A stretch of DNA of 42,655 nucleotides, taken from assembly GCA_024655825.1 (NCBI GenBank), contig JANLFJ010000027.1, positions 1-42,655 on the forward strand, written 5' to 3'. Each line of letters starts with the position of its first letter. Positions within the stretch are counted from its first letter, which is position 1. Made by a program: the position numbers and the translations under genes. Under the pieces are notes generated by a model. It was not told the origin of the DNA. It made no database searches and was given only the letters and a program-made list of their open reading frames with translations. Source of the stretch: Peptococcaceae bacterium. Lineage in GTDB: Bacteria; Bacillota; Peptococcia; DRI-13; PHAD01. Positions 25,196-36,204 of this stretch are shown here, in pieces.

Positions 25196-26317
25196 TCAGC
25201 CCAGGAATTCCTTAATCGAGTCAACCACATAATTTATTTCTTCATCATTTAATTCCGGGTCTATGGGCAACGCCAAAACCCTTTGTGAGGCCGCCTCCGA
25301 TACCGGTAGGTCCCCCGGCCTGTACCCCAGCCCTTTGAAGCACTCCTGCAGATGAAGCGGCAAGGGATAATACACAGAGGTGCCAATTCCCTTTTTCTTT
25401 AAAAATTCGGCCAGCTTGTCCCTGTGGTCAACAGAAACAACGTACTGGTGAAAGACGTGGCCGTCTACAATCGCGGGACACGTAATCTTCCCCGCCAGCA
25501 CTTTTTCTTCAAATGCTTTATTATACAAGGAGGCGACCCTGCGTCTTTTCTTCGACCATTCCGGGAGGTATTTGAGTTTAACGTTGAGAACTGCCGCCTG
25601 GATGGTATCCAGCCTGCTGTTGTATCCCACAACGCTGTGATAATACTTCGGTTTCGAACCGTGGACCCTTAATACAGCTATCTTCTCAGCCAAAGCGTCG
25701 TCATTTGTCGCAACGAGGCCACCGTCTCCATAACAGCTCAAATTTTTCGTCGGGAAGAAGCTGAAACATCCTATGTCCCCTATAGAGCCGGCTTTTCTTT
25801 TTTGACCGCGGTAGTTAACATCTGCACCTATTGCCTGGCAAGCGTCCTCAATAACTTTTATTCCATATTTTTCGGCCAGGTCCATAAGTTTCTCCATGTT
25901 GCAGGGCAACCCGAAAAGGTGGACCGGGATTATCGCCTTTATTATTTCGCGGTTAATGATATCCTCAACCTGTTCCGGGTCAAGATTGTAGGAAACAGGG
26001 TTTATGTCGACGAACACCGGCTCGGCTCCCAGCCTGCAAACAGCTCCCGCCGTCGCGAAGAAAGTAAACGTCGGGACGATGACTTTGTCACCCTTGCCTA
26101 CTCCCAGCGCATGCAAAGAAAGGAGAAGGGCATCGGAGCCCGAAGCGACGCCCAGGGCGTGCTTGACTCTTAGGTATTCGGCGATGTTTTTCTCGAATTC
26201 ATTTACTTGCGGTCCCATAATGTAGCTGCCGTTTATTAAAACCGTTTCCACCGCCCTATCAATTTCCTTTTTAAGCTGTAAATACTGTCCGGCTAAGTTT
26301 AACAAGGGCACTTTCAT
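25196..26317 (-). CDS. wlbC: DegT-family aminotransferase, WlbC/WbpE type
   Basis: A 373-residue PLP aminotransferase with K191 in GCFSFFPTKNLSCYGDGG, GSDALLLSLHALG (60-72) and EDACQAIGA (157-165). These strings are those of WbpE/WlbC, which places an amino group at C3 of UDP-3-keto-GlcNAcA. The gene lies directly between the matching acetyltransferase (4-bp overlap) and the matching oxidoreductase, reproducing the three-step module. The pathway product would be UDP-GlcNAc(3NAc)A after acetylation. Family assignment is strong; the pathway is inferred from gene order. Confidence 0.85.
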   Translation of the reverse strand: MKVPLLNLAGQYLQLKKEIDRAVETVLINGSYIMGPQVNEFEKNIAEYLRVKHALGVASGSDALLLSLHALGVGKGDKVIVPTFTFFATAGAVCRLGAEPVFVDINPVSYNLDPEQVEDIINREIIKAIIPVHLFGLPCNMEKLMDLAEKYGIKVIEDACQAIGADVNYRGQKRKAGSIGDIGCFSFFPTKNLSCYGDGGLVATNDDALAEKIAVLRVHGSKPKYYHSVVGYNSRLDTIQAAVLNVKLKYLPEWSKKRRRVASLYNKAFEEKVLAGKITCPAIVDGHVFHQYVVSVDHRDKLAEFLKKKGIGTSVYYPLPLHLQECFKGLGYRPGDLPVSEAASQRVLALPIDPELNDEEINYVVDSIKEFLG

Positions 26318-26892
26318 TCTTCTACCTCTTTTATTTCAAGGTCACTAATCATTATGTACATTGACGCGCACTTCTTACAAATCGACTTCTTGCCTTCAAA
26401 ATTCAACTTTTCCCCGCACCTGCACACCCAACCTTTAAGGCCGGCCGGGTTGCCAAAAACAAGCCCATGATCCGGCACATCGGCGGTAACCACCGAACCG
26501 GCACCGATAAGGGCATATCGCCCAATAGTGTTACCGCACACAATGGTTGCATTCGCCCCAATACTGGCGCCTTTTTTAACTAGTGTCTTTTTGTATTCGC
26601 TTTTTCGTTCAATAAAGCTCCGTGGATTTATTACATTTGTGAACACCATGGACGGCCCGAGAAAAACGTCGTCCTCGCAAATGACTCCGGTATAAATCGA
26701 AACATTGTTTTGGACCTTGACGTTATTTCCCAAAATTACTCCCATGGCAATAAACACGTTTTGGCCGATATTGCAGTTTTCTCCTATCTTGCATTCTTTC
26801 ATAATATGCGAGAAATGCCATATCTTTGTATTTTTGCCTATCCGGCAGGGCTCGTCAACGTATGAAGATTCATGAACGAAATAATCCCTCAA
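26314..26892 (-). CDS. wlbB: UDP-3-amino-sugar N-acetyltransferase, WlbB/WbpD type
   Basis: A 192-residue hexapeptide-repeat acetyltransferase with a TTG start behind GGAGG. The repeats GKNTKIWHFSHI, IGENCNIGQNVFI and GASIGANATIVCGNTIG are typical of WbpD/WlbB, which acetylates the C3 amine of UDP-GlcNAc3NA. FGNPAGLKGWVCRCGEKL is the family's C-terminal hallmark. It is followed here by a second Cys pair (ICKKC), giving CRC-CKKC, a possible zinc site. The start overlaps the regulator's stop by 4 bp and the end overlaps the aminotransferase by 4 bp. Confidence 0.87.
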   Translation of the reverse strand: MRDYFVHESSYVDEPCRIGKNTKIWHFSHIMKECKIGENCNIGQNVFIAMGVILGNNVKVQNNVSIYTGVICEDDVFLGPSMVFTNVINPRSFIERKSEYKKTLVKKGASIGANATIVCGNTIGRYALIGAGSVVTADVPDHGLVFGNPAGLKGWVCRCGEKLNFEGKKSICKKCASMYIMISDLEIKEVEE

Positions 26893-27434
26893 CTTCTCTT
26901 ATCCTCCGCTTCCCAAACGATTAGCGCATTATCAATGTCCAGGTTTCTTTTATATCTTTCAAACTCTATATTGCTGAACACTAATGTGCGAATCTTCCTG
27001 TTAATAAGCTGTTCGGATTTGTCTACCAGCAACTGTAGATAGTTTTTGTCGACATCTCCTACAATCACCAGATCGATTAAGCCGGAATCAATCCCCTGGG
27101 CATAGTCACCAGTAATAAAAGCTATTTCCACATTGCCGAGATGGGCTATCACTATATCAATTAACTGGTCGATCCCCGTATACTTAAGCACAAGACTATG
27201 TAAATCGGAAAAAAGGGAATGTTTCGTGTTCGCTTTGTATTTAATCGTTCTTCCATCTTTTTCAGTACACAGCAGACCGGCTTTAGATAGACGGTTAAGT
27301 TCCACCCTGATCCCATTTGTTGACTCACCCAACTCTTCTGCAAGACCCCGTAAATATGACTGGCTATGGGGATTGAGAAAAAACTTTAGCATGAGTTTTA
27401 TCCTTGTTTTTGACGTGATCAATGATTCGAGCAA
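26889..27434 (-). CDS. Winged-helix regulator with degenerate nucleotidyltransferase-like domain
   Basis: A 181-residue protein, first gene of the polysaccharide operon. I choose the TTG at 27434 (MLESLITSKTR) because GGAG lies 8 nt upstream; the GTG at 27443 overlaps that site. Residues 5-70 form a winged helix-turn-helix (SYLRGLAEELGESTNGIRVELNRLSKAGLL). Residues 106-127 look like a MNT/Pol-beta strand-loop, but the GS...SDID signature reads GD...SGLIDL, so catalysis is doubtful. It is likely to bind the inverted repeat that surrounds its own promoter and so control the whole locus. Which signal the second domain senses is unknown. Confidence 0.75.
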   Translation of the reverse strand: MLESLITSKTRIKLMLKFFLNPHSQSYLRGLAEELGESTNGIRVELNRLSKAGLLCTEKDGRTIKYKANTKHSLFSDLHSLVLKYTGIDQLIDIVIAHLGNVEIAFITGDYAQGIDSGLIDLVIVGDVDKNYLQLLVDKSEQLINRKIRTLVFSNIEFERYKRNLDIDNALIVWEAEDKRS

Positions 27435-27465
27435 AAATATCACTCCAGATGTGAATTATAAATCG

Positions 27466-27504
27466 CAATGGTTTACGAGTAATATTATGACTCGTAAACC
27501 ATTG
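27466..27504. promoter_or_regulatory. Perfect 15-bp inverted repeat, probable operator
   Basis: The arms CAATGGTTTACGAGT (27466-27480) and its exact complement (27490-27504) are separated by 9 bp that contain the -10 hexamer. One arm fills most of the -35/-10 spacer and the other covers the likely transcription start. A dimeric repressor bound here would block RNA polymerase. The winged-helix protein encoded 40 bp downstream is the obvious candidate. A terminator is unlikely because no T-run follows on either strand. Confidence 0.75.
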
Positions 27505-27512
27505 GTTGTCAA
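27484..27512 (-). promoter_or_regulatory. Sigma-A promoter of the polysaccharide operon
   Basis: On the minus strand a perfect TTGACA (27507-27512) is followed, after 17 bp, by CATAAT (27484-27489). Transcription would start near 27477, giving a leader of about 43 nt before the regulator's TTG codon. It is the only strong promoter I see for the 27-kb gene series. Confidence 0.8.
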
Positions 27513-27545
27513 CCTTATGGTTTTGTTAAACGCCGTGCAATAATT

Positions 27546-29768
27546 TCATTTTACGCTCATTAACATTCCGATAGCTTTTTGGGCTTGATTTACTTCGTTT
27601 ATTACCTTATCATCATATGCCTCAATATTATATCCATATACCAGAACCTCAGCCCATTCCATGGGCTGCTCATTATACTTTTTCGACGTCTCAAAATACT
27701 CTTTTGCCTTTTCCATATCATTAAGATATATATAAACATACCCAATTGTCTTTATAAGCTTGGGGTGTTTTAGCCGCCATTCAGTACGCCACGGGTAATC
27801 TTTCGGCACTTCTTTTTCCTGTCTCTCTGCCATTTTTTCTATTTCAATCGCTTGAAGCAGGTGTTTTTTACCCTCAATAATGTTTTCTTTATTAATTATT
27901 AAATCTTTAGCCAGAAGAAGTTCTATATTTGCCGCATCTGCATATTCGCTGCCGTCATATTTATTGATACTAATCGCCTTTTTATAATAATCAACGGCTC
28001 TCGCATCGCCAATAAATGCCAAATAATTAGCTTTAGTGGAATACCAGTCTGACTGGTAACGGTCATATTTAATGGCATAATCCACATGCTCAAGCGCTTT
28101 TTCCATATATTTAACATCCATTGAATCCACATATTTATTGAAATATATGTTGGCAATGTTCATATGGGTTTTTTCGGCGAAGGGATTAAAGCGCGCTGCT
28201 TTTTCCGCATATTTTAGCATCAGATCAATATCACCCTGCTTTTGAGCCCCTACTATTTTATCGTTATAATAAATCGACAGCACCAATGAACAAGTGCTCA
28301 AAATAAAAACCACTGTTATGATAATAGCTGCAAATCTAACCGGGCGTAAAACCCATCCCTTTGATTTTGTATTTCCATTAATTACACCCAACATCGACCA
28401 GAAAATAATCCCAATAGCTCCATATGAAAAATCAAAGTCCATAATCCCATGGATAAACAGCCCCAGCGCAATTATGCCAGGAAGAGCCAAGGCTCTATTA
28501 CTTTTTGTAAATAAAGCTTTAATTATTAATAATAGCGATGCTCCGAGAAATGACAGCAGACCAAGTGCACCCGATTCCACAGCGATTTCAAGTATATTAT
28601 TATGAACCTGAGTAGTGTAATACGGCAGCGATCGAGCTGTTTTATACATCGCTTCCCAGGCGCCGCCGCCATAACCAATTAAGGGAGATGCGGCAATCAA
28701 TTTGATTGCGTCCTTATAGAATACTATCCTATGGTAAATGTCAACATCGTTAATGTTTAAGTTGATAATTCTACCCAGCAAATTATAAGCTATAAAGCCT
28801 CCTTTTGTAATCCCATATAAGAATATTGAGACAACCGCAGGAAATATTATGGCCTTTAAATATTTGTCTGCTTTGTCGTTATTGCTGAAATATCTCTGAA
28901 ATATATAATTAAACCCTATTAATGCAGCAGCCCCTGTCAGCACTAACCCCCAGGCAAAAAAATAGCTCTTGCTAATAACCCTGTCCAGAAATAAAACGCC
29001 AATTCCCCCGCCTGCCATTAACTGACACATAATAAGGGCCAATGCCTTATTTTTATTCCAGGCCTCCCAATTATAAATGAATAATAAAGCAGTCATTATT
29101 GCAAAGGTTATAAAACCTCCCCTAGACTGAGTACCAAATAAGCATATCAAAATTAAATAATTAGCTATTAATAAAAACAATCTTTCCGCAGTATTTTTTG
29201 TTTTACCAAATCCATTTAAACCAATCATTAACACTGCAGACAAATATACTGCCAGCGTATTGGCGTAGCCAAAAGTTGAACCAATCCTGTTTCCGCTGAA
29301 GGACCGTTCAAAAAGATTTAAGCCGTCGGAAGCCGATAAAAGGCCAATCACAGCAACAGCAACACCAGTTATAAATATTGCTGTATAAAGCGATTCATGT
29401 TCCCTTTTAATACAAATACATTCTGCAGCAATCAAATATACCATAAACAGACCCAGATAATTATAAGCGGCCTGGATGGAAAGCCATTTATTTGCTCCAT
29501 TAATTATGGCCATGAAGTTTATCAATACAAAAAAAGCAATTAATATATCAATTAATGAAAATTTACTATTAAACCCCTTAACCAAGGCAACTAAAAAAAG
29601 CATCCCTATTAGAAGGTTTATTATCAGTTGATCTCGTTCAAGAAAAACACCCTTCCAGAGTGGCGAAACCACCAAGAGAATTATCAAGCCATAATATAGG
29701 TATTTGATATAATCTTCTTTCTTTTGATGCCCTGCTAAATGGCTTCCCTTTTTAATATTTCTAGCCAT
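27546..29768 (-). CDS. O-antigen ligase/polymerase-like membrane protein with C-terminal TPR domain
   Basis: A 740-residue protein. About residues 20-490 form ten or more membrane helices with the Wzy_C/WaaL-type region: GSTFGYANTLAVYL, a QSRGGFITF block and, later, IGYGGGAWEAMY with the conserved YYTTQVHNNILEI. Residues about 510-740 are soluble tetratricopeptide-like repeats (NPFAEKTHMNIANIYF, AIKYDRYQSDWYSTKANYL, KAKEYFETSKKYN). Related proteins transfer glycans to lipid or protein acceptors. Located between the polysaccharide operon and a surface-protein gene, it might glycosylate that protein (inference). The ATG has a good GGGGGAG site. The 29769-29956 leader is AT-rich without a convincing promoter. 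Confidence 0.82.
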   Translation of the reverse strand: MARNIKKGSHLAGHQKKEDYIKYLYYGLIILLVVSPLWKGVFLERDQLIINLLIGMLFLVALVKGFNSKFSLIDILIAFFVLINFMAIINGANKWLSIQAAYNYLGLFMVYLIAAECICIKREHESLYTAIFITGVAVAVIGLLSASDGLNLFERSFSGNRIGSTFGYANTLAVYLSAVLMIGLNGFGKTKNTAERLFLLIANYLILICLFGTQSRGGFITFAIMTALLFIYNWEAWNKNKALALIMCQLMAGGGIGVLFLDRVISKSYFFAWGLVLTGAAALIGFNYIFQRYFSNNDKADKYLKAIIFPAVVSIFLYGITKGGFIAYNLLGRIINLNINDVDIYHRIVFYKDAIKLIAASPLIGYGGGAWEAMYKTARSLPYYTTQVHNNILEIAVESGALGLLSFLGASLLLIIKALFTKSNRALALPGIIALGLFIHGIMDFDFSYGAIGIIFWSMLGVINGNTKSKGWVLRPVRFAAIIITVVFILSTCSLVLSIYYNDKIVGAQKQGDIDLMLKYAEKAARFNPFAEKTHMNIANIYFNKYVDSMDVKYMEKALEHVDYAIKYDRYQSDWYSTKANYLAFIGDARAVDYYKKAISINKYDGSEYADAANIELLLAKDLIINKENIIEGKKHLLQAIEIEKMAERQEKEVPKDYPWRTEWRLKHPKLIKTIGYVYIYLNDMEKAKEYFETSKKYNEQPMEWAEVLVYGYNIEAYDDKVINEVNQAQKAIGMLMSVK

Positions 29769-29956
29769 TCAACTCCCCCTCTTATCAGGATTGTGTAAAA
29801 AGACCACTTGTTCAGAAAACACCACTTCTTCATTAGTACACATTATAAATATAACACATAACAACTTTATTGTAAGACACTACTTTATAGGAAACATTTG
29901 CCTTAGTTGACAATACAGCAAAGGGTAGTTTTAGTCCTACAAAACAGCAATTGGGC

Positions 29957-29990
29957 AAAAAAAGGAGAGGCTCGCGCCTCTCCTTTTTTA
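29957..29990 (-). terminator. Intrinsic terminator after the surface-protein gene
   Basis: GGAGAGGC (29964-29971) pairs with GCCTCTCC (29976-29983) around a TCGC loop, flanked by seven A on one side and six T on the other. The structure works in both directions; it lies 8 bp beyond the stop of the minus-strand gene that it should terminate. Confidence 0.9.
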
Positions 29991-29997
29991 GTTGTGA

Positions 29998-32274
29998 TTA
30001 TTGGGTGTAAGACACAGCCTGAGTGGCCGCATCGTAACCTACTGTCGCGTCAAACGCTTCACCGACTGCCCGGAACGGCAGCACAGTGCGACCGTTCTTG
30101 ATCTGGGCAGCAACATCAGCGGTAACCGTGGAGGTTACACCACCCTTGACCACGGTGATGGTGTTGGAACCAATAACGATGGTAACTGTCCTGTCGGAAC
30201 GGGTCAGGGTTACAGTCTGGGTAGCTGCATCCCAGCCGATTTCAGCGCCGAAGGCGTCGGCAACGGGACGCACGGCTACGAAGGTGCGGCCGTTCTCAAT
30301 AAACGGAGCTACATCGGTAACCTTGGGAGCGCCGTCCTGAACATAGCCGGTAGCGCCGATAAACATGGTAACTGACTTGGCGCCGACAACCACTTTCGGA
30401 GCGCCGAATTCAAGCGTGATAGAGTTAGTGAAGCTGATGTCATTTGCGCCGTCAGTAGCGGTGATAACCACCTGGGCTACAACTGTACCCGCCTTGTTGC
30501 TGGAGATCTTGAGAGTGGCTGAGCCTTTTTCCTTGATGTTTTTCACGATTTCAGAATCCGTGCTGTTGCTGACAATGGCATCAGCAGGCTTGGAGACGAT
30601 GTAGTAGCTCGCTGTAACGTCGCTGATATCGTTGCCGCCCGGGACCTTGGAGCCAAGAGCAACAGGTTTGCCGTCAGCGTCTAGCAGTTGGGCGGTGATA
30701 ACGGCATCCTTGCCAACCTCGGTAACCCCGGCAGGGCCGGTCAATTGCAGGCCGGAAGCCTGTTTCATAACGGTGATGGTAGCGGTGGCGCTCAGGTTCT
30801 TATCCTTGTCAATGACCGTGATGGTTTTTTCGCCTGCATATTTTTCGTCAACGTTTACCGTATCAAACGCACCAGTAGCAGCGTTAAGGTTTTTGATTGC
30901 GCGGGTGTCGCTGGCAACAAACTGCAGATTTGTGGTTATTTGCTTAGACACGCCGGCATCGTCCCATCTCTTTACGGTAGGTGCCGGGACAGTTGCGCCG
31001 ATAGGCACCACACTGGGCTTGTATTCAACCGTCAATTTTGTGGGTGTTCCCTGCTTCTTGACGGTGAATTTGAGATCGACGTATTTGCCCGAATCGAAGT
31101 AGGCTTTGATGGTGTAGTCGCCTTCTTTGTCAAGCTCTTTACCAAATATCTTCATAACAAGATATCCGGTGGTGTCTTCGGATTTGAACAGATAATCGGT
31201 TGTTTCAGAGGTGTTTTGATAGATTTTCTCGTCCATAGCGGCATCGGTCGGCCTTTGAGTTGCTTCAAACTTGAGGCCCAAGTTGCCGGCCGCCAGGTTA
31301 ACGGGAGCTGTAGAAATATCTACGCCGTCTTTGTTCGTAAGGCCGCTTACTTTCACCTGGTTCCCGTTGACGTCCAGGAGCTTGAACTTGAACTCTTTGT
31401 CCGCATCCTTGGCAATTAACTGGTTGTTGTCGGAAATTAGTTCGATGTTGTAAAGGTCGTTGGCATTAAAGTTGACATATACTTCTTTTTCTACATCTCC
31501 AGATTTGCCCTTGATGGAATATTTGCCAGGCTTGGAGGCGAACACTTTTACCTTAGCTATGCCGGCAGCGTCAGTGACAATCGATGTTTTGCTGAAAGAA
31601 ATCTCGGGCTTGCTGGCAGTAAATTCGACTGTCGTATCCCGGACAGGCGCGTTGTTTTCAGCTGACAGCTTGAAGGATATCTCATAGTAGTCGACGCTGT
31701 TGCCGTTAACAGTAGCATCGTTATAGGGGTCTCCGCTGGTACCCGCAGAACCGTCGTTTTTGTCAATTGTCAATACCTCAAGGGTTTTAGCCGCGGGAGC
31801 TGTGAAGGTTACGTCAAATACCCCGTTTTGCAGGATCTTTGCGTCTTCAGCAGATGGAGCACCGCTGCCTCCATAGAGGTATTGCTCAATTATGGTTTTG
31901 CCGGCATCAGGCAAGCCGAGAGCGATTTTTGCCGCTCCAGGAACATTGGATTTCACTTTGAAGCTAGCCTTACCAGTGGTGACATCTGTTATAACATACT
32001 GTAAGGTGCCGTCAAATGTGCCTGAATCTGCGGCAAACGTTTCAGTGGTACGGTTACTGGCAAAATATACCTTTGTGCTGCCCGCGATGGAGTTATCGGA
32101 ATTATAAGTATACACGGTAACTTTGATCGTGTCGGAGCCGTTCGCCGCGACCGAAGTCTTGTCAATGCTGGCAACTGAAGCGAACCTGTCGGCAGCTGCA
32201 AACGCAGACAGCGGCAGAAGTGTCATCATGAACACTACTAGTGTCAAGATGGCAAAAAGCTTCTTGGATTTCAA
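29998..32274 (-). CDS. Secreted surface protein with Ig-like repeats and C-terminal stalk (copper-amine-oxidase N1-like) domains
   Basis: A 758-residue secreted protein. I start at the TTG at 32274, 8 nt after a perfect AGGAGG. This gives a signal peptide (KSKKLFAILTLVVFMMTLLPLSAFA), whereas the longer open frame only runs through the leader. The body has repeated bacterial Ig-like motifs (SIDKTSVAANGSDTIKVTV, ITTNLQFVASDTRAI, TVEFTASKPEISFSK). The last about 130 residues contain two copies of a domain with PFIENGRTFVAVRPVADAFG and QIKNGRTVLPFRAVGEAFD, seen in many clostridial surface proteins. It is probably an abundant S-layer-like protein, given its strong promoter and ribosome site. No SLH domain is present, so anchoring may be through the stalk domains. 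Confidence 0.85.
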   Translation of the reverse strand: MKSKKLFAILTLVVFMMTLLPLSAFAAADRFASVASIDKTSVAANGSDTIKVTVYTYNSDNSIAGSTKVYFASNRTTETFAADSGTFDGTLQYVITDVTTGKASFKVKSNVPGAAKIALGLPDAGKTIIEQYLYGGSGAPSAEDAKILQNGVFDVTFTAPAAKTLEVLTIDKNDGSAGTSGDPYNDATVNGNSVDYYEISFKLSAENNAPVRDTTVEFTASKPEISFSKTSIVTDAAGIAKVKVFASKPGKYSIKGKSGDVEKEVYVNFNANDLYNIELISDNNQLIAKDADKEFKFKLLDVNGNQVKVSGLTNKDGVDISTAPVNLAAGNLGLKFEATQRPTDAAMDEKIYQNTSETTDYLFKSEDTTGYLVMKIFGKELDKEGDYTIKAYFDSGKYVDLKFTVKKQGTPTKLTVEYKPSVVPIGATVPAPTVKRWDDAGVSKQITTNLQFVASDTRAIKNLNAATGAFDTVNVDEKYAGEKTITVIDKDKNLSATATITVMKQASGLQLTGPAGVTEVGKDAVITAQLLDADGKPVALGSKVPGGNDISDVTASYYIVSKPADAIVSNSTDSEIVKNIKEKGSATLKISSNKAGTVVAQVVITATDGANDISFTNSITLEFGAPKVVVGAKSVTMFIGATGYVQDGAPKVTDVAPFIENGRTFVAVRPVADAFGAEIGWDAATQTVTLTRSDRTVTIVIGSNTITVVKGGVTSTVTADVAAQIKNGRTVLPFRAVGEAFDATVGYDAATQAVSYTQ

Positions 32275-32579
32275 ACTATATCCCTCCTTAAAGTTTTCAA
32301 GGTCCTCAAACCCAATGTCTTTGACAGTGGGCCTGTGCCCGGGTGAACTTACCCCCGGGGGCGGTTCCTGCCGCGAGGTCGGCTTCTTTCGGGAGCCTGA
32401 CACCGGGCATCTTGCTTGGAACCTCTACGCACTTCTATGTATCTCCTTTACACTCTAAGTGGCCCAACCACCCCCTTTAACGGGATTTAAGCAATTAACC
32501 TAAAACCTAAAGGTTTGTTTTTTTACCTTTAGAAAATTAAGGACTGTGAAAATAAAAGCAATAGTACGCCAAGTTACTA
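32275..32579 (-). ncRNA. Long structured 5' leader of the surface-protein mRNA, candidate cis-regulatory RNA
   Basis: About 305 nt separate the predicted transcription start from the TTG codon. In RNA order, GGUUCC (32423-32418) can pair with GGAACC (32368-32363), and UGCCCGG (32409-32403) with CCGGGCA (32342-32336). The pairs interleave, implying a pseudoknot or two exclusive folds. A hairpin at 32331-32311 (CCCA-TGTC / GACA-TGGG) follows, then CCUU/AAGG (32302-32286), which could mask the AGGAGG site. An 8-bp hairpin lies near the 5' end (32532-32507). The GC-rich core is unlike the AT-rich first part. I could not match it confidently to a known riboswitch class. Confidence 0.5.
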
Positions 32580-32585
32580 TACCAC

Positions 32586-32613
32586 ATTATATCACAGCAG
32601 GCGTCCAAGTCAA
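32586..32613 (-). promoter_or_regulatory. Sigma-A promoter of the surface-protein gene
   Basis: Minus strand TTGACT (32608-32613), a 16-bp spacer and a perfect TATAAT (32586-32591). Start of transcription should be near 32579, which yields the long leader described for the surface-protein gene. Confidence 0.75.
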
Positions 32614-32666
32614 TAACCATAAATAGTAAATCTGTGCAGATTCGGAGGAAATAATCAAGAAAAAGC

Positions 32667-33407
32667 TCATTTTTTGTTTTTCAGCCTAAAAAGAAGCACC
32701 AGCAGCACGAACCTCGGCAAGGCCATCATCCGCCGGATGCGAGAAGGCTGGCGGCACAGCCGGTAAAGCCATTCCAGCCCGCGGCGCTGCATCCATTCCG
32801 GCGCCCTCCTGGCCGTCCCGGCCAGGATGTCGAAGGACCCGCCCACGCCCACGGACACGGGAACCTTCAGCTGATCGATGTTCTCGCGGATGAACGTCTC
32901 CTGCCGGGGTACTCCCATGCCCACCAGGAGGATGTCCGGTTTCGCCCTGTTGATATTCGACACGACCTCTGCCGTTTCCTCCTGGGAAAAGTATCCGTGG
33001 TGGTAGCCGCAAACCCTTATTTTAGGGTGGCTGCCCAGGACGTTCAAGACAGCTTTTTCCACCACGTCCCTGGAAGCCCCAAGAAAATAGAGGCCCCAGT
33101 CCTTTTTCTCGGCGAGTTCGAGTATGCGGTAAACCAGGTCTATCCCGGTCACCCGGCCGGGGAAAGGGGTCCCCAGAAGGCGGCCCGCCAGGACAACGCC
33201 CGCCCCATCCGCCGTGACCAGGTCGGCCTTGTCCAGCACGGCATGAAAATCCTTGTCTATGTAAGCCCTGTAAATGATCTCGGCGTTGGCCGTGACGATC
33301 TGCCGGGGCTTTCCCTGCTCCACCATGACGCCTATCCATTCCACAACCTCTTCCATGGACATCCGGGCCACCCGGACCCCCAGGATGGAAACGGTCTCGA
33401 TCTTCAT
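32667..33407 (-). CDS. tagA: TagA/WecG/CpsF family glycosyltransferase
   Basis: A 246-residue GT26 enzyme. The conserved blocks are ANAEIIYRA (about 40-48), VTADGAGVV with the presumed catalytic Asp (D67), FLGASRDV, PDILLVGMGVPRQETFI and WMQRRGLEWLYRL. TagA adds N-acetylmannosamine to undecaprenyl-diphospho-N-acetylglucosamine, the second step of wall-polymer linkage units. Its presence beside two LCP ligases supports attachment of a polymer to peptidoglycan. It is the last gene of the run starting at 36204, followed by the surface protein's promoter region. The polymer itself cannot be named. Confidence 0.9.
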   Translation of the reverse strand: MKIETVSILGVRVARMSMEEVVEWIGVMVEQGKPRQIVTANAEIIYRAYIDKDFHAVLDKADLVTADGAGVVLAGRLLGTPFPGRVTGIDLVYRILELAEKKDWGLYFLGASRDVVEKAVLNVLGSHPKIRVCGYHHGYFSQEETAEVVSNINRAKPDILLVGMGVPRQETFIRENIDQLKVPVSVGVGGSFDILAGTARRAPEWMQRRGLEWLYRLCRQPSRIRRMMALPRFVLLVLLFRLKNKK

Positions 33408-33604
33408 AGACGTTTAACTCCTTTAAATTGTTCCTCAAGGGACTTTCGGAGTTTTTCGGGCGCCGGCTTGCGCAACCGGTTCCTTAATTATATTACCCTC
33501 GCACGCGGCAGGGCAAACACCAATTAGGCAACTGCAAACTAAAATGCGCTGTTATGAGGGCTGTTTTGGGGAATTTCCGCCGTTTCTTTCGTTATTGCTC
33601 CGGC

Positions 33605-34540
33605 CTAGCCCGTTTTTTTCCCGTAGATTTTTTCCAGCAGGGCGGTAAGGGCTTTTTCGTCGGCTATCCAGTAGCTCGCACCGTAGTTTATGTCATCGGC
33701 CTGTCCCGGGACGATGAACGCTTCGAGCTTTATTTCTTTCACATCGCGGAACCTGTTGGCCAGGGCGATCATTTTCTGCACCGGCATGTCGGTCTTCACC
33801 TGTTTGTTCAGTTCCTCCAGCAGGTCCGGTATTTTCCATATTGTGGAGAAGGTCAGGGCCTGGTCGGCCAAGGCCCGGAAAAACTTCTGCTGCCGCTCTA
33901 TGCGGCCGATGTCGCCATGCCCGTCGCCGCGCCAGCGCACGTATGAAAGGGCATCCCGGCCGTCCAGTTTCTGCAGGCCGGCCTTCAGGTCGATCCCCTC
34001 TTCCGGCAAATACATCCTCTCTTCCACGTTGATGGTGATCCCGCCGAGGATGTCGATGATGCTGCTGAAACCCGCAAAGTTGGTCTCCACGTAATAGTGG
34101 ACCGGGAGGTCGAGAAATTTTTCCACGGTTTTGACCGTCAGCTCGGCCCCTTCCACGGCGTGGGCGTAGTTGATCTTGCGGGTAACCCCCTTGCCCGGTA
34201 TGTCCACCCTGGTGTCGCGGGGTATGGAAAGGAGGTGGATCGCTTTTTCCTTTATGTTGATGGAAGCCAGGATGATCGTGTCCGCCCGGGCCGGCTCGTT
34301 TTCCCGCTGGTCTATGCCCAGGAGCAGGATGTTCAAAATATCCTGCGAACTGTAGAGGGGCTGCTCTTCGCCTTTTTTATCGGGAGGCACGAGGGGATCG
34401 AACAGGAGCCGCGCGCCCCAGAAACCCAGGCACGCGCAGAGCAGGAAAAGTGCGGCTGCCAGGACCAGGCCTGCCGGGGTTAAACCCGATCTTTTCCTGC
34501 GGGCCAGGCGCGGCAGGTTTATTTCTTTTTCTGTTTCCAT
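33605..34540 (-). CDS. LytR-CpsA-Psr (LCP) family wall-polymer transferase
   Basis: A 311-residue type II membrane protein: a short basic cytoplasmic tail, one membrane helix (about 24-44) and an extracellular LCP domain. The domain shows ILLLGIDQRENEPARADTIILASIN, the Arg motif SIPRDTRVDIPG, the KINYAHAVEGAELTVKTVE block and SYVRWRGDGHGDIGRIERQQ. These bind polyprenyl-pyrophosphate and transfer wall glycopolymers to peptidoglycan. It is one of a tandem pair; the second copy lies 97 bp upstream. The spacing to the TagA gene is 197 bp with nothing clear in it. Confidence 0.9.
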   Translation of the reverse strand: METEKEINLPRLARRKRSGLTPAGLVLAAALFLLCACLGFWGARLLFDPLVPPDKKGEEQPLYSSQDILNILLLGIDQRENEPARADTIILASINIKEKAIHLLSIPRDTRVDIPGKGVTRKINYAHAVEGAELTVKTVEKFLDLPVHYYVETNFAGFSSIIDILGGITINVEERMYLPEEGIDLKAGLQKLDGRDALSYVRWRGDGHGDIGRIERQQKFFRALADQALTFSTIWKIPDLLEELNKQVKTDMPVQKMIALANRFRDVKEIKLEAFIVPGQADDINYGASYWIADEKALTALLEKIYGKKTG

Positions 34541-34637
34541 CTTTTACCTCCACCGGTTGCGCCGGCCGCCGCCCGCCTGCCGCTGCCTGTAAAAATTTTT
34601 TAATAGAAAGCGGAAACCGGAAGGCGGCAAGCGAAAA

Positions 34638-35531
34638 TCATTTTCTCGCCACCTGAGCGGTGCTAAGAGGTATGGCCAGGAGTTCCCGGAGAGCGGGCAT
34701 GTCCGGCTCCCAGTACCAGAGCCCGTCGATTTTCTTGTTTTCGCCGGGCAGCACGCAGGTGGAAATGCCCTTTTCCAGCACCTCGGGAGCGATGCGGGCT
34801 AAGGCGCCCATTTCCTTGACCGTCAGGTCGGTTTTCACGTCTTTCTGGAATATGGAAATGAACTGGGGCAGCTTTGCCAGGTTCTGGGCCTTCAGCACCT
34901 TTTCCGCAAGCAGGGTGATCACCTGCTGCTGCCTTTTTACGCGCCCGATGTCCCCTTCGCTGGTCCCCCGAAAGCGCGTGTAAGCCAGGACCTGCTCGCC
35001 GTTCAAGTGCTGCCTGCCGGGCTGCAGGTCAATCCCTTCCAGGGGCACGTACATCCGCACCGGCACGTCCACTTCGATGCCGCCCAATTCATCCACCAGT
35101 TTGACCAGGCTTTTGAAATCCGCGAGCACGTAGCGGTCTATCTCCACGTCCAAAAAATCGGAGAGGGTCTTTTTGGTGAGTTCCACGCCGCCGTATGCGT
35201 AGGCGGCATTGACCTTGTCCCAGGAGCCCTTGATCCTGACCCTGGTATCGCGCGGTATGGAAAGGAGCTGGGCTTCTTTTTTCTCCCCGTCCAGGGAAGC
35301 CAGAATGATCGTGTCGGCCCGGTCGTTAACTCCCTGCCGCCCGTCGAGACCCAGCACCAGGACGTTAAACCGGTCAAACTCCGGTTTCGCGCCGCTTTCG
35401 CCGCCCTGGCCCCTTTTTTCAGACAGGGTTTTGGGGTAGGGGAGCCGGAAATACCTGTCGAAGGCCAAATAACCCAGGCACAGGACGGCCGCCAGGACGA
35501 CAGCCGTCTTAAACAGTGTTGATTTGCGCAT
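34638..35531 (-). CDS. LytR-CpsA-Psr (LCP) family wall-polymer transferase
   Basis: A 297-residue LCP protein with a single N-terminal membrane helix (about 8-24). Its extracellular domain has VLVLGLDGRQGVNDRADTII, SIPRDTRVRIKG with the catalytic-site arginines, KVNAAYAYGGVELTKKT and AYTRFRGTSEGDIGRVKRQQ. It is a paralogue of 33605-34540, with similar length and domain limits. Redundant LCP enzymes are common in Firmicutes. Together with TagA it implies covalent anchoring of a secondary wall polymer. Confidence 0.9.
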   Translation of the reverse strand: MRKSTLFKTAVVLAAVLCLGYLAFDRYFRLPYPKTLSEKRGQGGESGAKPEFDRFNVLVLGLDGRQGVNDRADTIILASLDGEKKEAQLLSIPRDTRVRIKGSWDKVNAAYAYGGVELTKKTLSDFLDVEIDRYVLADFKSLVKLVDELGGIEVDVPVRMYVPLEGIDLQPGRQHLNGEQVLAYTRFRGTSEGDIGRVKRQQQVITLLAEKVLKAQNLAKLPQFISIFQKDVKTDLTVKEMGALARIAPEVLEKGISTCVLPGENKKIDGLWYWEPDMPALRELLAIPLSTAQVARK

Positions 35532-35628
35532 GTTTTACCACCTTATTTTCGCTTTAAGAGGCACAAAGGGAACCGGGTTAAGTTAACCGGATGCAACGGG
35601 TATGAGATGTATAGAATCGCTGCCGGAA

Positions 35629-36204
35629 TCAGCGGAACACGGCAGCGGTCTTGCTCTCCGGGTCCCATTCCAAAGAGGCCCCCATGTGCTCGCCGATAAA
35701 GCGGAGAGGCACCATGGTCCGCCCGCCGGCAATGAACGGGGCGGCGTCCAGGGAAACGTTTTTCCCGTTGGCGAGGGCCGTTTTCCGGTCAATAAACAGC
35801 TCTATGGTGGTATCGTCCAGTGAGCAGGTAACCCGGCGGGACTTTTCATCCCAGGAAAAAAGCGCGCCGAAGGCTTCCCCGACGAAGCGCAGGGGAACCA
35901 TCGTCCGGCCGTTGACGATAACCGGCGCCACGTCCAGGCCAACCGGCCGGCCGTCGATGGAGGCGCTCGCCTGGCCGATGACAATCCTTATTTCCGTCAT
36001 CAGCCGGCTTCTCATTTCCTTTACGTCACGCTGCATCTGGGCAAAAGAAGCCTGCAGCGCTTTTATCCGCTCCTCGAGCGGGCTGGTGGCCGTTATCAGC
36101 CAGTTGTCAAAATAGTGTTTCGTCATGAGCTGCTCCTGGGCCAGAAGGGGAAGGGCCAAGAGCAGCAAGGCCAGGAAAACGGCGACGGCTGGGCTTTTTT
36201 TCAT
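35629..36204 (-). CDS. Small secreted stalk-domain protein (copper-amine-oxidase N1-like)
   Basis: A 191-residue protein with a signal peptide (about residues 1-22). A short helical part (about 50-70) follows, then two repeats of the stalk domain: IVNGRTMVPLRFVGEAFGALFSWDEKSR and FIAGGRTMVPLRFIGEHMGASLEWDPESK. The same domain ends the large surface protein at 29998-32274. It may be a cell-wall-associated accessory to the surface layer. It is the first gene of the run to the LCP and TagA genes, with a possible promoter at 36259-36287. Confidence 0.8.
   Translation of the reverse strand: MKKSPAVAVFLALLLLALPLLAQEQLMTKHYFDNWLITATSPLEERIKALQASFAQMQRDVKEMRSRLMTEIRIVIGQASASIDGRPVGLDVAPVIVNGRTMVPLRFVGEAFGALFSWDEKSRRVTCSLDDTTIELFIDRKTALANGKNVSLDAAPFIAGGRTMVPLRFIGEHMGASLEWDPESKTAAVFR

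Follow-up and report, generated by a model that had tools for sequence, protein, structure and literature searches.

A conserved, structured leader with a Shine-Dalgarno-like core before surface-layer genes, a possible 5' mRNA stabiliser

What does a long, structured leader do ahead of the gene for a surface protein? S-layer proteins are among a cell's most abundant and need very productive messages, and the leader considered here precedes the gene of an S-layer-like protein in a 42,655-nucleotide stretch of DNA from a Peptococcaceae bacterium (hereafter the window; Table 1). The Cu_amine_oxidN1 domain of this protein is C-terminal, and a domain search found no SLH domain in it. Its domain make-up, its signal peptide and the analogy with SLH genes suggest that it is a major surface protein. 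The gene is presumably transcribed from the predicted promoter, and relatives have a similar promoter-like site at a comparable distance, as judged by eye. At the extreme 5' end of the predicted transcript, AUAGUA and UACUAU could pair into a hairpin (32580-32561, minus strand), which, again by eye, relatives do not conserve. The neighbourhood (window 26314-36204) is one of envelope genes: it encodes a WecG/TagA glycosyltransferase, two LytR_cpsA_psr proteins, an O-antigen-ligase-like protein with TPRs, a hexapeptide transferase and a second Cu_amine_oxidN1 protein.

Table 1. Features of the leader and its surroundings in the window (arms and motifs are given in transcript direction).
Feature	Position	Strand	Sequence or arms	Remarks
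Promoter-like site	32586-32613	minus	TTGACT-16-TATAAT	extended -10 (TG); 11 of 12 consensus matches
Leader	32275-32579	minus		conserved, structured; directly before the TTG start at 32274
P1 hairpin	32507-32532	minus	CUAAAGGU 32532-32525 / ACCUUUAG 32514-32507	73% of cells paired
Conserved element	32491-32500	minus	GGUUAAUUGC	invariant in 11 aligned leaders of the order
Core	32466-32478	minus	AAAGGGGGUGGUU	Shine-Dalgarno-like, no conserved start codon; GCCAC follows at 32463-32459
P2	32363-32423	minus	GGUUCC 32423-32418 / GGAACC 32368-32363	variable inner stem; identical with pair A
Pair A		minus	GGTTCC 32423-32418 / GGAACC 32368-32363	6 bp
Pair B		minus	TGCCCGG 32409-32403 / CCGGGCA 32342-32336	7 bp
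P3 hairpin	32338-32359	minus	CCCGGG 32359-32354 / CCCGGG 32343-32338	overlaps B'
P4 hairpin	32309-32333	minus	32333-32323 / 32319-32309	loop AAA; two-sided changes in 7 of 11 pairs
P5 hairpin	32282-32302	minus	CCUUGAA 32302-32296 / UUUAAGG 32292-32286	overlaps the RBS
RBS	32289-32282	minus	AAGGAGGG	overlapped by P5
Surface-protein gene	29998-32274	minus		TTG start; Big_1 and Cu_amine_oxidN1 domains, signal peptide

The leader is a real, conserved and folded piece of mRNA that is common to the surface-layer genes of many related bacteria. A DNA search of 120 relatives, which are a sample of genomes and include many MAGs, returned full-length copies at 70-74% identity from several families of the same order, every one of them preceding a gene for a secreted surface protein with Big_1 and Cu_amine_oxidN1 domains. 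The proteins encoded behind these leaders have similar signal peptides ('KLFAILTLxxFMMTLxP' and variants). Among the nine downstream proteins that were read whole, from nine genomes, Cu_amine_oxidN1 scores above cut-off in all and Big_1 in eight, the ninth reaching 34.8 against 34.9 bits. Consistent with the structured leader described in the initial annotation, the RNA of the window folds better than its dinucleotide shuffles (z -2.87), as do all 11 aligned leaders (z -2.3 to -4.7).

Among the relatives, P1, P2, P4 and P5 taken together covary more strongly than any of 500 shuffles and than all slid controls. This signal stems mostly from P4 and to some extent from P1, which shows some two-sided changes and is also found ahead of several SLH genes. 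P5 is paired in 97% of cells and nearly invariant; because P2 and P5 hardly vary, covariation argues neither for nor against them. All 11 leaders have a P3 hairpin, the sequence of which varies, in a test that leans towards this result because the arms were hand-picked from computed folds; RNAalifold, run on a plain MAFFT alignment, missed P3 and proposed an almost invariant AGGUU/AACCU long-range pair. An invariant UACAUA, followed by GUA in many relatives, suggests a further small UAC...GUA hairpin with a conserved AUAR loop (32441-32426, minus strand).

The initial annotation had drawn attention to two perfect pairs that interleave in the order A-B-A'-B' and had read them as a pseudoknot or as mutually exclusive folds. 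Both pairs exist on the minus strand as described; their interleaving alone is not beyond chance, because pairs this long are common in 305 nt, and the leader holds 14 maximal perfect inverted pairs of at least 6 bp. Pair A is invariant in all ten leaders that have P2, the entire element being absent from one further leader (L013). Pair B is peculiar to the window: it is paired in 69% of cells over 11 leaders, its exact 7-bp Watson-Crick form occurs in none of the nine other leaders possessing P2, its arms belong to the interior of P2 and to P3, and it competes with a hairpin kept in every one of the 11. Since B is unconserved and covaries no better than shuffles, the pseudoknot is most likely a coincidence, and the exclusive A-B folds lose their basis with it. 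The hairpin said to mask the ribosome-binding site is real and corresponds to P5; it covers AAGG and leaves AGGG free.

Does the leader belong to a known RNA family? Rfam 15 yields no family at the gathering threshold in the window; a relaxed search of the leader gave chance matches alone, and one of 18 related loci gave a single unrelated sRNA match. A suggested likeness to the ydaO c-di-AMP riboswitch comes down to the common short strings GGAACC and GGTAAGT, and cmscan of the leader lists no ydaO match even at E<=10, so this identity is not supported. Among the relaxed matches, HgcG (RF00064, an archaeal H/ACA-type RNA) aligns over the full length of the leader (32548-32272, minus strand; 27.3 bits, E 8.9e-6). 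We judged it a chance match because orthologous leaders do not match, and its score falls well short of the gathering threshold of 77; it exemplifies a misleading E-value. Being conserved, covarying in places, lying outside Rfam 15 and carrying an apparently non-initiating anti-Shine-Dalgarno match that resembles those of known 5' stabilisers, the leader supports the proposal of a new cis-regulatory RNA or mRNA-stability leader.

This match lies in the most conserved part of the leader, the core, which reads GGUUAAUUGC-n-GAARGGRGKGAU and is followed by GCCAC in the window's class; family f7 has a AAACACAUUGAAU-like sequence in place of GGUUAAUUGC. Most relatives carry GAAAGGGGGGAU as their core, of which the window has a weaker variant. 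When leaders were scored against GGAUCACCUCCUUUCU, by duplex energies that ignore leader folding, the core was the strongest match to the 16S anti-Shine-Dalgarno sequence in 33 of 33 leaders, with energies of -15 to -24 kcal/mol; in the order's leaders the next-best site, usually the RBS, ranged from -12 to -15 kcal/mol. In the window the core reaches -18.8 versus -13.6 kcal/mol for the RBS, and in L003 it reaches -24.0; shuffles of two leaders gave a best site with a median of -12 and a 5% point of about -16.5 kcal/mol. The core is also predicted to be comparatively open, its mean unpaired probability exceeding the leader average in 11 of 11 leaders. The tail GGAUCACCUCCUUUCU was found in three of the seven related genomes searched; a search of the window's own MAG, from which the 16S may be missing, did not find the 16S 3' end. 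Of 37 leaders, 24 have no ATG, GTG or TTG at a usable distance behind the core, and the other 13, among them that of the window with its TTG, offer a possible start there.

The core is far more widespread than P2 to P5, which do not extend beyond the order and, in part, its relatives. A sequence-only core model trained on the window's order and class has matches at E<=0.1 in 28 of 46 class genomes; in 20 of the 28 the E-value is below 1e-6, and most of these 20 are training members of the model. Outside the class, where it has no training members, it matches eight genomes at E<=0.001, and in all eight the gene behind the best match has an SLH domain. Another core model, built from a broader set and matching many of its own members, added weaker matches before SLH genes (L150, L154) and before a secreted protein with no Pfam match (L153), along with three other places, two of which resemble ordinary RBSs before Hsp20-like genes while the third is unrelated; the classes of G158 and G154 were represented in the search by three genomes each, none of them new. 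A scan of genome contigs with the exact pattern returned 17 records, mostly Clostridia or Bacillota MAGs, of which at least two are apparent chance matches (L092, L094) and none carries a Synergistota title. The core precedes two unrelated kinds of surface protein, SLH-domain S-layer proteins in other parts of the phylum and Big_1/Cu_amine_oxidN1 proteins.

How might such a leader promote expression? We propose, with a probability of roughly 0.55, that it is a 5' mRNA stabiliser of the STAB-SD type that works through docking of 30S subunits; the proposal is made because its features resemble the cry3A STAB-SD and the stabilisation of Bacillus mRNAs by strong Shine-Dalgarno sequences. We envision that a 30S subunit would dock on the core by pairing of the 16S 3' end, with no conserved start codon to follow, and that the docked subunit would keep RNase J from degrading the message in the 5'-to-3' direction. 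Stem-loops P1 to P4 might add protection or maintain the fold, and P5 might tune access to the real RBS. Binding of 30S, stabilisation and the functions of GGUUAAUUGC and the stem-loops are what we infer from the leader. RNase J is encoded: RNase_J_C scores above cut-off in 16 of 16 genomes, that of the window included. A point against the proposal is the distance of about 100 nt between the predicted transcript start and the core, since the 5' end would first have to be trimmed by RNase J or an endonuclease.

The precedent is close in several respects. STAB-SD binds 30S subunits in the absence of initiation and blocks RNase J1 (PMC4113751), and a strong Shine-Dalgarno sequence stabilises Bacillus mRNAs even when a start codon is lacking (PMC3997798). 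Like the STAB-SD of Bacillus thuringiensis cry3A and other stabilisers of this kind, the core is a Shine-Dalgarno-like 5' UTR sequence far upstream of the RBS of the gene, with complementarity to the 16S 3' end, in most leaders no evident productive start codon, a presumably very abundant product and RNase J present (PMC4113751, PMC3997798). Unlike STAB-SD, it sits within a long, conserved and structured leader, after the invariant GGUUAAUUGC and a hairpin. Also against the proposal, neither the conserved GGUUAAUUGC nor the large 3' structure would be required by a stabiliser as such, the core of the window is a weaker variant, and a start codon is possible in the 13 leaders mentioned. A literature search on S-layer leaders and mRNA half-life found nothing.

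An alternative is a translational switch, be it a riboswitch or a protein-responsive leader, in which a ligand or protein would select between two folds. In one of them P5 would mask the RBS; in the other the 5' strand of P2, AGGUUC, would pair with GAACCU on the 5' side of P5 and free it. We consider such a switch unlikely. The near-invariance of P2 and P5 fits it, as does the pairing of the P2 strand with the anti-P5 sequence over 7-8 bp, G-U pairs allowed, in seven of the ten leaders with P2, the window among them; so do the otherwise unexplained invariance of GGUUAAUUGC and the riboswitch candidate that Stav et al. associate with S-layer genes (PMC6429828). However, invariant strands offer no covariation test, L013 keeps P5 yet has no P2, no Rfam riboswitch matches, and the confinement of P2-P5 contrasts with the far wider distribution of the core.

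If the docked subunit instead served initiation, then the core would be a standby site or translation enhancer, from which 30S would reach the structured RBS by sliding or by handover, with a gain in translation and not in stability. Its rank as the best anti-Shine-Dalgarno match in all leaders scored and the partial masking of the real RBS by P5 would suit this role, but the distance between core and RBS, about 80 to 320 nt, is beyond that expected for a handover, and structured elements lie in between, which makes it quite improbable in our view. We give very little credence to the idea that a small upstream ORF, with the core as its RBS, controls the gene by translation or stalling. A TTG or ATG is in place in the 13 leaders, and three leaders of family f10 (L052, L053, L056) share a frame after the core, xPHHFEKSSWT with an ATG or CTG head, possibly an upstream ORF restricted to this family. 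Across the 37 leaders no conserved frame follows the core; the 13 frames are, except among close relatives like the f10 leaders, mostly short and unrelated, and a conserved upstream ORF is rejected for most members by the missing start codon in the 24.

Could the putative stabiliser extend beyond this order? The SLH motif, a riboswitch candidate described by Stav et al. (2019; PMC6429828), stands ahead of SLH genes of Clostridia, Negativicutes and Synergistaceae, and the core likewise sits before SLH or surface-protein genes, although the gene of the window lacks an SLH domain; the two were compared by location. They may be the same element, a possibility that we put, by guess and not by computation, clearly below even. 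Somewhat more speculatively, one might imagine a widespread element for surface-layer mRNAs in which GGUUAAUUGC and a non-initiating Shine-Dalgarno core recruit 30S, and perhaps a further factor, and so give the message an unusually long life; today it would precede SLH-anchored proteins in some classes and proteins that bear Cu_amine_oxidN1 in others. Retention of the core ahead of two unrelated kinds of surface protein would suggest that protecting a message with a docked ribosome, a strategy best known from an insecticidal crystal gene, has recurred. The core is a compact element and open to testing in Bacillus subtilis. In two of the genomes the leader and its surface-protein gene occur twice, on opposite strands and a few kb apart (L117 and L118 in G013; L046 and L060 in G011).
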